Assembly (NCBI GenBank): GCA_945931665.1
Contig: CAMEPL010000002.1
Coordinates: 1 to 64,000, forward strand
Length of the DNA stretch: 64,000 bases
Source: an uncultured Clostridium sp.
GTDB lineage: Bacteria > Bacillota > Clostridia > Peptostreptococcales > Peptostreptococcaceae
Direction: 5' to 3'
Within the stretch, counting starts at the first letter, position 1. Each line of letters starts with the position of its first letter. The notes below the pieces were generated by a model that worked only from the letters and a program-made list of their open reading frames with translations, had not been told where the DNA came from and made no database searches. The position numbers and the translations under genes are program-made. Below are positions 17,563-54,585 of the stretch, one piece after another.

Positions 17563-18636
17563 TTATTTTACAAAGTGTACTGCTCCAGTTATTCCACTAT
17601 AGTTACTTGAGAAGTAGTTAGTAAATTCGCTTATTGATTTAACTATCATACTACCTTCTGGTTGTCCATTATAATTATAGTTATCAGAATAATATACTTT
17701 TCCATCTTTTATAGCATGTATAAATAAAACATGTCCTACAGTACTAGTTGATCTATAACTTCTTGGGAAAGTAACAACTACGTTGTATACGTCTTTTCCA
17801 CCATTAGCATTTACTAAGTTTGTAAGGCAATTTACACCTGCATATTTCTTTTGAGTATATCCAGTACGAGTTTTTCCGTTAGTTGTTAATTTTGAATACC
17901 ATTGGCTACCATTCCAGTATGTATCTGGTGTTTGATATATGTTTAATGCTTTAAGTTGTGAATAAACATATAAAGAACATTGTTTTGAGAAATTAGTTCT
18001 CCCTGTCATTGCTTTAGCTTGTGCATATGTAGAAGCTATTTGACTTTTTATTTGGCTAACTGTTTTAGTAGCTGTTGTTGTATTATTAGTAGTTCCTGTT
18101 GAAGTTGATTCTGATGTTGAACCACTTGAAGTTGTTCCAGTTGATACATATGTTTTACTTACCCATCCGTATCCACCGTTGTAGCTTATTTTATACCATC
18201 CATTGCTTTCTCCATATATAGTAACCACTTTACCTTTACTTAAAACTCCTAATATACTATATGATGTTGATGCTCCACTTCTAACATTTAATGAATTAGC
18301 TGTTATTGTTCCTGTTTTTGAACTTTGTGCAGTCCCTGCTGAAGTTGAGCCTGATGTTGAACTATCTGAGCTTGATGAGATATATTTTCCACTAACCCAT
18401 CCATCATTGCCCTTGTAGCTTATTTTATGCCATCCATTTTGAGTATCTTTTATTTCAACTTTATTTCCTTTACTTACTGTTCCTAGAATGCTGTGTGATG
18501 TTGATGCACCACTTCTAACATTTAATGAATCAGCTGTTACAGTTCCGCAACTTGCCGCACTAACAGGAGTTGTTACTCCTAACATAGTGATTACTGCTCC
18601 TATAATAGCTGTAGTTTTAACAAATTTCTTTAACAT
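17563..18636 (-). CDS. Secreted protein, two SH3b domains plus C-terminal Cys/His (CHAP/NlpC-like) domain
   Basis: Signal peptide; two copies of ADSLNVRSGASTSHSILGTVSKG...GWHKISYKGNDGWVSGKYIS; NFSKQCSLYVYSQL and GHVLFIHAI. Confidence 0.85.
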   Translation of the reverse strand: MLKKFVKTTAIIGAVITMLGVTTPVSAASCGTVTADSLNVRSGASTSHSILGTVSKGNKVEIKDTQNGWHKISYKGNDGWVSGKYISSSSDSSTSGSTSAGTAQSSKTGTITANSLNVRSGASTSYSILGVLSKGKVVTIYGESNGWYKISYNGGYGWVSKTYVSTGTTSSGSTSESTSTGTTNNTTTATKTVSQIKSQIASTYAQAKAMTGRTNFSKQCSLYVYSQLKALNIYQTPDTYWNGSQWYSKLTTNGKTRTGYTQKKYAGVNCLTNLVNANGGKDVYNVVVTFPRSYRSTSTVGHVLFIHAIKDGKVYYSDNYNYNGQPEGSMIVKSISEFTNYFSSNYSGITGAVHFVK

Positions 18637-18978
18637 AAATTATTTTCCTCCTAAATTCTTTTTTATTAAGAAAATCTTTATTATAAATACTTTTCATTAT
18701 AAATAATTTTGATGTTGATTTCCTTAAAACCTGTTTCTTAAAACTCATTTAAGTAATTTCTATATTTTAAAATTTTTGTTGTTTTTTTCCTTGTCATATA
18801 TATATCATATTACATTTTCGTAATCTTTTAAACCTTTTTTTGAAAAAAAGTTACATATTTGTTACTTTTTTGAATTCAGTTTTTGAATTATTTTTGTTAA
18901 AACCTAGTAATTTCAATGTGTTTGATATTTTTCTATTTTGTAATTTTTTTCTAAATATATTTTTTTATTTTTAATGTA

Positions 18979-19090
18979 TATAATCTATAAATTTGCACAA
19001 TAATACTATTGTAATTTAAATATTTAACTCAATCTCCCCCAATTTAATTGAGCTTTCATTCCCCCAAATGAAAGCTCTTATTTTTTATAA
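18979..19090 (+). ncRNA. Candidate orphan small RNA, two hairpins with C-rich loops and terminator
   Basis: TATAAT at 18979-18984; CTCAAT-ctcccccaattta-ATTGAG then GAGCTTTCAT-tcccccaa-ATGAAAGCTC followed by TTATTTTTT; no ORF explains it. Confidence 0.55.
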
Positions 19091-19183
19091 GATTTATAAA
19101 TAAATATAAACCAAATATGCTTGATAAAATTTATTCTTATATGATAATTTAAATACTAATACTATATAAAATTGGAGGCTGTC

Positions 19184-19525
19184 ATGATTCAAATAGGAAA
19201 AATAAATTTAGATTGTGATTTTGAATGTAGAACAATCCGAGAAGAAGATGATGATTTAGATATATATGTAGATGTAAATTATAGATGTCTTGATATAGAC
19301 CTTGGTGATAATAACTTCTTTAACTCTAGAATTCAATTTCCATTTGTAAGATCTGTACTACTTAGAATAAATAAAAATATGGAAACTATTACTGTTCATT
19401 TAATGAGAGATATTGATTTATTCTCAGCATTCGCTAATTTCGAATTAGATTTAACCAATCAAGTTCTTTGTATAAAAAATGAATATGAAAAAGTAATCAT
19501 GTCTAAAATCATAATAGATAAATAA
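19184..19525 (+). CDS. Hypothetical protein (113 aa)
   Basis: ATG at 19184 behind GGAGG; terminator follows. Confidence 0.7.
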   Translation: MIQIGKINLDCDFECRTIREEDDDLDIYVDVNYRCLDIDLGDNNFFNSRIQFPFVRSVLLRINKNMETITVHLMRDIDLFSAFANFELDLTNQVLCIKNEYEKVIMSKIIIDK

Positions 19526-23915: not shown

Positions 23916-26159
23916 TTATTCTTTAATTAAATCTATTGTAGTATATTCCTTGTTTATTGTCTTAATCCCTTGGTTGTCAAATGCTATCGTAACATCTGGA
24001 CCTTTTAAAGCTACTACTGTACCTGTTCCGAATTTTGGATGATGTACTTTGCTTCCCAATTTTATATTATCAATATCTGATATATCAGTTTTTTCTTTTA
24101 TTGTTGCTTGTGCTTTTTTCGCCATTTCTGCCTTATTAACTGAATTCATATATTTCTTAGTATATTTATCAAGCATATTATAACTTGCTTTTGAATATGG
24201 TATTTCTTTTTGAACTCTATTAAGTCTTTCTATACAATCATCTGGTAATTCCTCGATAAATCTAGATGCAACAGAATGATTAGTTCTTCCGTATAAAGTT
24301 CTCTTTCCAGTCATAGTCATAAATAACTCTTCTTTTGCTCTAGTTATACCAACATAGCAAAGTCTTCTCTCTTCTTCAATTTGAGTATCTTGCATAGATG
24401 CAATTGCCCTTGCTATAGGGAATAGTTTTTCTTCCATTCCAGTTAAAAATACAACAGGGAATTCTAGTCCTTTTGCAGAATGTATAGTCATTAATGAAAC
24501 TCTATCAGCATGTTCTTCCTCTTCATTTGGCTCAGATGTTAATGCTACATTTGTTAAGAAAGATTCTAAACTCACATCTTCATTCTTGCTTTCAAACTCC
24601 ATAGCAACAGATATAAATTCTTTTAAGTTTTCTATTCTATCTTGTGATTCTTCACTCTTGTCTTTTTCTAATTCATCTAGATATCCTGTTATATCCATGA
24701 CCTTTTCTATCATTTTACTTGCAGGATATATTTCTTTTAAACTTCTAAAAGTAGACATCATATCTACAAACTCATTTATACTCGCTTTTGCTTTTCTTGA
24801 TATATCTGAGTTTCCATCAATATCTATTAATACTGAATATAAACTTTCTTCTTTTAAGCTGGCTCTATCTTCTATTTTTTCTATAGTTCTAAGCCCAATA
24901 CCTCTTCTCGGCACATTTATAATTCTTTTTAGAGATATATCATCTTGTGGATTTTGGATTACTCTTAAATAAGCTACCATATCCTTTATCTCTTTTCTTT
25001 CATAGAACTTTGTTCCACCATAAATATTATATGGAATTTGGCTTCTGTTTAATGCATCTTCTACTGGTCTTGCTTGAGCATTTGCTCTATATAAAACAGC
25101 AAAATCTCTGTATTGTCTTGCCCCAGATCTAACCATCGCCGAAATTGTATTAGCAACAAATTCTGCTTCATCAACTTCAGTTTCCGCAAGTTGAATTTTT
25201 ATTAATTCTCCTTCTTTCTTTTCACTCCAAAGTCTCTTTCTTTTTCTCTCTATATTGTTTTTAATTAGATAGTTTGCTGCATCAAGTATAATTTGAGTTG
25301 ATCTATAGTTTTGTTCTAGTTTTATTACATGAACATCATCATAATCTCTTTCAAATTCAAGTATATTCCTTATATCTGCACCTCTCCATCCGTATATACT
25401 TTGGTCATCGTCTCCAACTACACAGATGTTTTGGTGTCCTTGTGCAAGTAATCTGACAAGCTCATATTGCGCTCTACTTGTATCCTGATACTCATCCACC
25501 ATTATATATCTAAATCTATTTCTATAGAAATCTAGAACGTCCTCATGTTCTCTAAAAAGTTCTACTGTTTTTGAGATTAAGTCGTCAAAGTCAAGTGCAC
25601 TATTTCTTTTTAGACGGTCTTGATATAGTGCATATACATCCGCAATTCTTGATTTTGCGAAATCCCCTTGATATTTTTCTTTAAATTGCTTTGGATTTAT
25701 AAGCTTATCTTTAGCATTTGAAATAACACTTATTATATATTTAGGGTCCATAGCTTTTTCACTATAATTTAACTCTCTTAAACAGTCTTTTACAAGTGTA
25801 ACTTGGTCTGCACTATCATATATAACGAAACTTCTGTTGTATCCTATTTTATTTATAGATTTTCTAAGTATTCTAACACAACAAGAGTGGAAAGTTGTAA
25901 TCCACATTGCACTAGTATCTTCATCTTTTAGTGTTTCGTCTACCCTTTCCCTCATCTCATTAGCTGCTTTATTTGTAAAAGTTATAGCTAAAATATTTTC
26001 AGCTTTTACCTTTTTTTCTTGCATTAAATATCCTATTCTAGTAGTTAAAACTCTAGTCTTTCCTGAACCTGCTCCAGCAAGGATTAATATCGGTCCTTCT
26101 GTTTGTTCAACGGCTTCCCTCTGTGCAGGGTTCAGCATTTCAATAGTTTCTAAAATCAT
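23916..26159 (-). CDS. pcrA: ATP-dependent DNA helicase PcrA/UvrD
   Basis: LNPAQREAVEQTEGPILILAGAGSGKTRVLTTRIGYL, VDEYQDTS, VVGDDDQSIYGWRGAD, VSLMTIHSAKGLEFPVVF. Confidence 0.97.
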   Translation of the reverse strand: MILETIEMLNPAQREAVEQTEGPILILAGAGSGKTRVLTTRIGYLMQEKKVKAENILAITFTNKAANEMRERVDETLKDEDTSAMWITTFHSCCVRILRKSINKIGYNRSFVIYDSADQVTLVKDCLRELNYSEKAMDPKYIISVISNAKDKLINPKQFKEKYQGDFAKSRIADVYALYQDRLKRNSALDFDDLISKTVELFREHEDVLDFYRNRFRYIMVDEYQDTSRAQYELVRLLAQGHQNICVVGDDDQSIYGWRGADIRNILEFERDYDDVHVIKLEQNYRSTQIILDAANYLIKNNIERKRKRLWSEKKEGELIKIQLAETEVDEAEFVANTISAMVRSGARQYRDFAVLYRANAQARPVEDALNRSQIPYNIYGGTKFYERKEIKDMVAYLRVIQNPQDDISLKRIINVPRRGIGLRTIEKIEDRASLKEESLYSVLIDIDGNSDISRKAKASINEFVDMMSTFRSLKEIYPASKMIEKVMDITGYLDELEKDKSEESQDRIENLKEFISVAMEFESKNEDVSLESFLTNVALTSEPNEEEEHADRVSLMTIHSAKGLEFPVVFLTGMEEKLFPIARAIASMQDTQIEEERRLCYVGITRAKEELFMTMTGKRTLYGRTNHSVASRFIEELPDDCIERLNRVQKEIPYSKASYNMLDKYTKKYMNSVNKAEMAKKAQATIKEKTDISDIDNIKLGSKVHHPKFGTGTVVALKGPDVTIAFDNQGIKTINKEYTTIDLIKE

Positions 26160-33599: not shown

Positions 33600-33815
33600 T
33601 AAGATATTCTCTCCAACCCCGAAGAAGCGTATCGATTATTTATTAGGCAGGTCTCCTGACTTAGTATCACTCTATCCCTCCCTTCCCATGATATGTATCA
33701 CAGTGGTAATTGAGAGACTCGTCAACATTACAGTAGCGGGGGCTGTAGAGGAATTGCACCTCTTTCCCTATTAATCTAATTTAGAACCTAAAATATATTT
33801 TCATTAATACCAACA
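33600..33815 (-). ncRNA. Cobalamin riboswitch
   Basis: Minus strand GGGAAagaGGTGCAATtCCtcTACAGCCCCCGCTACTGTAA ... AAGTCAGGAGACCTGCCT (B12 box). Confidence 0.93.
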
Positions 33816-54334: not shown

Positions 54335-54585
54335 AAAAAGTCTCTCGGTTAAAAAACCAAGAGACGAATATACCGCGTTACCACTCTCATTGATAAGAAA
54401 CTTATCCACTCTATTCTTTTAAGGCAAGATTACCTGTTTTCCTACTTAATTCAAAAAACATTCTCCAAAGTTCTCTTCACAACAGGTTTCTTTACCTAGC
54501 TTCCACCATCCCAGGCTCTCTATAAATTCTTCCTATGCTACTGTCTTTATCATCGAATCTATCTTTCTTCAATTTTAGTAAGTTT
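54335..54585 (-). promoter_or_regulatory. T-box leader with Stem I, T-box AGAGTGGTAACGCGG and terminator
   Basis: Minus strand AGTAGCATAGG...AGCCTGGGATGGTGGAAGCTAGG...GTGAAGAGAAC...AATGAGAGTGGTAACGCGG, terminator GTCTCTTGGTtttttAACCGAGAGACTTTTTT. Confidence 0.88.

Follow-up and report, generated by a model that had tools for sequence, protein, structure and literature searches.

The LhrC sRNAs of Listeria are C-rich and encoded in multiple copies, and their paralogs carry UCCC-type seeds. In the Bacillales, RsaE/RoxS and FsrA pair with Shine-Dalgarno regions through C-rich single-stranded seeds (PMC4409812, PMC8216469). SpoY (nc020) of C. difficile recognizes targets with a G-rich motif that resembles a ribosome-binding site and acts on spo0A (PMC10267692). 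A further group are the CsfG-type forespore RNAs, for which no mRNA target has been identified since their discovery in 2011 (PMC8216469, PMC9147052); CsfG corresponds to the opposite strand of the Rfam family RF00516 'ylbH' (PMC3574147). Here, we analyze a locus in 64,000 nucleotides of DNA from an uncultured Clostridium sp. (the whole stretch is termed the window). The locus probably represents a family of forespore anti-Shine-Dalgarno sRNAs, confined to the bacterial family of the window, that would silence sigH and other messages with GGGGG-type sites. A description of this sRNA family was not found in the papers searched; single copies may already figure as unnamed transcripts in the supplementary sRNA tables of C. 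difficile studies.

The sequence-only reading of the locus had likened it to the RsaE/RoxS design. The general plan of that comparison holds, while the closer counterpart is the forespore sRNA CsfG. RsaE/RoxS and FsrA differ from the window's family of sRNAs in promoter type, seed and taxonomic range, give no Rfam match, and serve NO and iron control, whereas the sRNA described here probably acts in the forespore. Compared by description and not by sequence, SpoY is similar in its G-rich, ribosome-binding-site-like targets and in hitting a sporulation regulator; unlike the window sRNA it is derived from a 5'UTR, peaks in exponential phase and lies at another locus. LhrC differs in being stress-induced via LisRK, in its sequence and in its taxon.

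CsfG and the sRNAs described here are both small, have C-rich single-stranded stretches, a sigmaF/sigmaG-type promoter and a short terminator hairpin at the 3' end, and occur in endospore formers, in the window's family not exclusively. The window's sRNA family is set apart by a different core, by several paralogs instead of one and by its neighbours: CsfG is placed between ylbG and ylbH, while here a 113-aa orphan gene, an HMA-domain gene, a 206-aa orphan gene, 5S rRNA and uvrB are found. B. subtilis and other Bacillota do match RF00516: of 149 Bacillota genomes from across the phylum, 70 gave a match, in only two cases above threshold. CsfG is thus far commoner than the Rfam cut-off admits (L169-L190). 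The 12 best RF00516 loci, which were read individually, carry the core TTTCTCCTCTCCCA just before the terminator, and several have a GTATA...CATAATA promoter. RF00516 gave no match in the window's own genome and three weak matches in the 72 genomes of its family, which were inspected and rejected, none having the CsfG core. Within the same order, CsfG occurs in family f11 and in one f4 genome and is not found in the window's family. Given this complementary distribution the two RNAs look like counterparts, and homology between them is possible.

On the plus strand, positions 18976-19087 of the window hold, in this order, GTATA, AATAATA, the segment ACTCAATCTCCCCCAA, a perfect stem with a CCCCC loop and TTATTTTTT. 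The sequence-only reading had listed a TATAAT box together with the last three of these elements, and all four are present as described. The predicted type A transcript spans 19012-19087 (+) and is about 70-75 nt long; its start was placed by the spacing from the -10 element, and its limits are predicted from the conserved promoter and terminator. The match of the covariance model (R1) to this copy covers 19002-19088. Within ACTCAATCTCCCCCAA lies the 5' seed ACUCAAUCUCCCCCAA (19027-19042, +), which is single-stranded and has a core, AAUCUCCCC, that is nearly invariant in the alignments (A2, A4). In RNA folding the seed has an unpaired probability of 0.99 in the window copy and a mean of 0.96 across 60 copies. 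The terminator stem-loop follows at 19050-19077 (+), with a perfect stem of 19050-19059/19068-19077 and CCCCC in its loop, and is supported by covariation and by a terminator scan. Its U-tract TTATTTTTT occupies 19078-19086 (+), as seen both in the sequence and in the scan. The scan returned a single site in the region, where shuffles lead one to expect none, and folding of the locus gave -17.1 kcal/mol versus -4.8 in shuffles (z = -5.8), with one dominant hairpin that is the terminator. The proposal that the second hairpin doubles as terminator is strongly supported by this single, covarying site. The other proposed hairpin, in which CTCAAT (19028-19033) pairs with ATTGAG (19047-19052), reaches alone -3.1 kcal/mol versus -14.3 for the terminator, and the two cannot both form in full because GAG at 19050-19052 is common to both. 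We rejected it as a structural element, as it is weak, overlaps the terminator stem and is absent from the other types; the first C-run is about 99% unpaired. Of the two C-runs that had been placed in loops, the CCCCC of the terminator is indeed in one, and the first is single-stranded instead.

The divergent upstream gene (17563-18636, -) encodes a secreted SH3-domain protein; its presence at this place is genus-specific, and elsewhere it is not part of the sRNA locus. Downstream lies a conserved orphan gene of 113 aa without Pfam match (19184-19525, +), and the gap between it and the terminator contains a sigmaA-like match, TTGATA-16-GATAAT (19121-19148). Rfam has no family at the sRNA locus (18600-19250 at E<=5; whole window at gathering threshold) or at the paralog loci. 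Elsewhere in the window, positions 24304-24404 (-) match Rfam n00280 with 72.2 bits; n00280 is an sRNA of C. difficile that lies within a helicase gene, and the match speaks for a position of the window close to Clostridioides. A T-box leader (54357-54562, -) and a cobalamin riboswitch (33629-33806, -) both exceed the gathering score.

With a covariance model derived from type A copies, the sRNA was found in 63 of the 72 genomes of the window's family, at one to five copies per genome; about 325 further genomes of the order gave no match at E<=1e-3. Four weak matches among class-level relatives were discarded as chance terminators without the seed. Orthologs found by a DNA search are 94-97% identical within the genus and 78-86% identical in the family's other genera. 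The copies fall into at least three paralog types of one anatomy, which combines seed, terminator and promoter. The window copy is of type A, type B reads ...AACATACTCAATCTCCCCCATTTAGACTTCTATT...CCCCC and type C reads ...TTACTCAATCTCCCCCATTT...CTATCCCCCATAG. The window's own genome also carries, on contig C21 (5740-5818, -), a type B copy with an intact seed and a terminator loop from which the C-run has been lost. The predicted conservation of the C-runs in relatives was confirmed, as the seed is nearly invariant and 54 of 60 copies have the C4 of the terminator loop. In the terminator, every one of the 11 base pairs of the stem has varied on both sides among 61 copies, 97.8% of the cells are paired and none of 500 shuffles equals this, a count that leans toward the model because the alignment had been fitted to its structure. 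An unfitted alignment of type A copies gives the same picture, with five pairs changed on both sides. Since it is conserved, the locus is not a chance occurrence, and the sRNA almost certainly exists as a conserved unit. The original suggestion of an orphan sRNA of less than 110 nt with C-runs complementary to Shine-Dalgarno sequences is strongly supported by conservation, by covariation and by the target analysis described below.

The promoter had to be reassigned. The TATAAT at 18979-18984 (+), formerly taken as the promoter, is not conserved in relatives and was rejected; they keep only the overlapping GTATA, and TATAAT is probably not a -10 box. The conserved boxes are sigmaF/sigmaG-like, namely the -35-like GTATA (18976-18980, +), kept in nearly all copies, and, after an 18-nt spacer, the -10-like AATAATA (18999-19005, +), which was recognized by its conservation across copies and reads CATAATA in most other genera. 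Across copies GTATA is followed 15-18 nt on by CATAATA, CATACTA or AATAATA, and the second box is often preceded by GG. Promoters of sigmaF and sigmaG have the layouts GYWTA...GGnrAnAnTw and gHATR...CATnhTA. By motif match, a sigmaF/sigmaG pattern fits 33 of 44 upstream regions against 0.6 expected from shuffles, a contrast somewhat flattered because the pattern was partly adjusted after the copies had been seen, while a sigmaA motif fits none of the 44. SASP genes in the same genomes are preceded by the same layout. The promoter is therefore very probably of the forespore type; the consensus sequences of sigmaF and sigmaG overlap in C. difficile (PMC7438776).

The distribution of the sRNA points in the same direction. 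Of the 72 family genomes, 54 have a true sigG, and 53 of these carry the sRNA, the one exception being an assembly that is 84% complete. Seven of the 17 sigG-negative genomes, from four genera, lack the sRNA, and nine, all of genus g6, have it; one further sigG-negative genome (75% complete) was left out of this count. Genus g6 comprises 10 genomes of about 2 Mb without sigG, and the nine copies, one per genome, have a TATAAT-like promoter region; none fits the sigmaF/sigmaG motif, and the sigH site does not match. With this exception, the link between sRNA and sporulation appears strong, yet not exclusive. In the loci L077-L080, from a genus without sigG, the seed is shortened to CUCCCC, and three of four inspected copies have a TATAAT box instead of the sigmaF/sigmaG boxes; this may possibly be a promoter switch after loss of sporulation.

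In 12 genomes, the exact complement of the seed core in front of a start codon (GGGGGAGAT-N1-8-ATG) was found 115 times, compared to 16 times for the reversed control, and this C-rich complementarity to Shine-Dalgarno sequences is the trait held in common with RsaE/RoxS. It is quite likely that the sRNA acts on Shine-Dalgarno sequences. The exact complement is carried by 82 genes with a readable start and of mixed function; only sigH recurs in more than two genomes, in eight of the 12, while the next best recurs in two. The sigH site of sister genomes within the window's genus is GTAAATGGGGGAGATTTCATG, which forms 15 perfect base pairs with the type B copy (-26.8 kcal/mol); this pairing was taken from three sister genomes because the window's own assembly (86% complete) has no sigH. 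The longest perfect pairing in the background is 11 bp, and the energy at sigH beats all 193 background gene starts. The sigH pairing in this genus is also stronger than that of 1000 shuffled seeds. In C. difficile-like genomes the site is TATATGGGGGAGATTTACATG, with 12 perfect base pairs, and a match of 11-15 perfect base pairs between seed and sigH is found in 12 of the 18 sRNA-bearing genera checked; in the other six (g3, g7, g8, g15, g20 and g22) the pairing is weak. In g15 and g22 a seed CUCCCCU is accompanied by AGGGGAG at sigH. This is suggestive of covariation, which we do not claim because the pairing comprises only 7 bp and is no better than background. Outside the family the sigH site is mostly GGAGGAG-like. 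In genus g37, where the sRNA was not detected, sigH retains GGGGGAGAU in two of three genomes, and the site, being itself a Shine-Dalgarno sequence, may be conserved for that alone. On balance, we favour sigH as a main target.

GGGGG Shine-Dalgarno sequences precede about 14% of the gene starts sampled (26 of 180; window and family loci), which implies two classes of ribosome-binding sites that such an sRNA could tell apart. Many genera have conserved GGGGGG-type gene starts, such as AAGGGGGGAGT, in their type B loci (L019, L031-L034, L037, L043, L044). Apparently these are starts of the 206-aa orphan next to the sRNA, a gene that may be a local target. These numbers could also suit an sRNA of RsaE/RoxS design that is made by sigmaA, responds to growth phase or stress and tunes metabolism through many GGGGG-type sites, with sporulation being incidental. 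Its Shine-Dalgarno-type seed and C-rich loops, the share of GGGGG gene starts, the 82 genes of mixed function and the retention of a copy with a TATAAT-like promoter in the non-sporulating g6 are all in keeping with such a role. We nevertheless consider it unlikely, as the sigmaA motif is found in none of the 44 upstream regions and sigmaF/sigmaG in 33, the copy was lost in four other genera without sigG, and the only perfect target to recur is a regulator of sporulation.

Slightly less likely still is an sRNA that is made in the forespore and has a late role, either stored in the dormant spore or acting on GGGGG-type mRNAs of the mother cell or of germination, such as sigE, with sigH not being key. 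The Shine-Dalgarno sequence of sigE is of the GGGGG type in most genera of the family (L231-L270), its median pairing percentile is about 7%, and sigE belongs to the genes found enriched by RIL-seq in C. difficile (PMC10267692). In the window's genus, however, the sigE site is GGAGGAC, with a pairing no better than that of the median gene, and the pairing at sigH is stronger and more consistent. As the window's own genus does not match, sigE was demoted from a candidate main target to a secondary lead.

The gene contexts bear on whether the RNA acts in trans or in cis. Without exception, the 21 type A copies immediately precede the 113-aa orphan gene, which runs in their direction. Type B is found in antisense orientation between the HMA-domain gene and the 206-aa orphan. 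Type C follows the 5S rRNA of an rRNA operon, and in most genera its other neighbour is uvrB. Types B and C share the seed of type A and lack the 113-aa gene, and in most cases no neighbouring gene runs in their direction. Type C copies directly behind the rRNA operon, after 5S, were seen at L036, L046, L083, L087 and L089, with L083 and L087 being divergent. Conservation is highest in the single-stranded seed 5' of the hairpin; this seed is invariant across paralogs and contexts, and its occurrence in three unrelated, ancient contexts favours action in trans over a role as leader of one gene. By their placement, types B and C appear to be independent transcription units. A cis-acting leader or attenuator of the 113-aa gene, in which CUCAA/UUGAG pairing competes with the terminator, would account for the invariant neighbourhood of type A, and CUCAAU can pair with an AUUGAG that overlaps the terminator stem. 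This is very improbable, given the other two types, in which the alternative hairpin (-3.1 vs -14.3 kcal/mol) is missing as well, and the promoter-like site after the terminator. A plain terminator, or a decoy of helix 89 of the 23S rRNA (AUCUCCCCCAA), can practically be dismissed: the terminator hairpin is good and the seed string also occurs in the 23S rRNA of some family genomes (L035, L036), but the best-conserved part is the seed upstream of the hairpin, which also answers the earlier reservation that the hairpin might be a mere terminator, and mimicry of 23S rRNA was rejected because a C. difficile-like genome has four C in its 23S rRNA and five in its sRNAs.

We thus return to the forespore anti-Shine-Dalgarno sRNA as the preferred reading; its transcription, forespore timing, translational block and physiological effect are what we infer in this model. 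Forespore RNA polymerase with sigmaF and/or sigmaG would transcribe positions 19012-19087 (+) of the window into a short trans-acting sRNA. Its unstructured 5' segment AAUCUCCCCCA(A) would serve as anti-Shine-Dalgarno seed, and the 3' hairpin would be the terminator and also offer a second C-rich loop. Pairing of the seed with Shine-Dalgarno sequences of the GGGGGA(G) type would block ribosome binding and lower translation. With sigH (spo0H), the early sporulation sigma factor, as best candidate target, the early programme would be shut off in the forespore. It is conceivable, if somewhat short of probable, that this private multicopy family replaces CsfG in the forespore, with sigH as conserved target and the GGGGG-type messages as a wider regulon.

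The ribosome-binding site of sigH offers a specific, conserved and strong target candidate for a kind of spore RNA without known target, and paralogs, seeds and target sites are supplied here in testable form. The family bearing the sRNA, presumably the Peptostreptococcaceae, probably includes Clostridioides difficile. If the model is true, the sigma-factor cascade of sporulation would gain a post-transcriptional step, in which a small RNA, and not a protein, silences the preceding sigma factor so that the forespore programme takes over.
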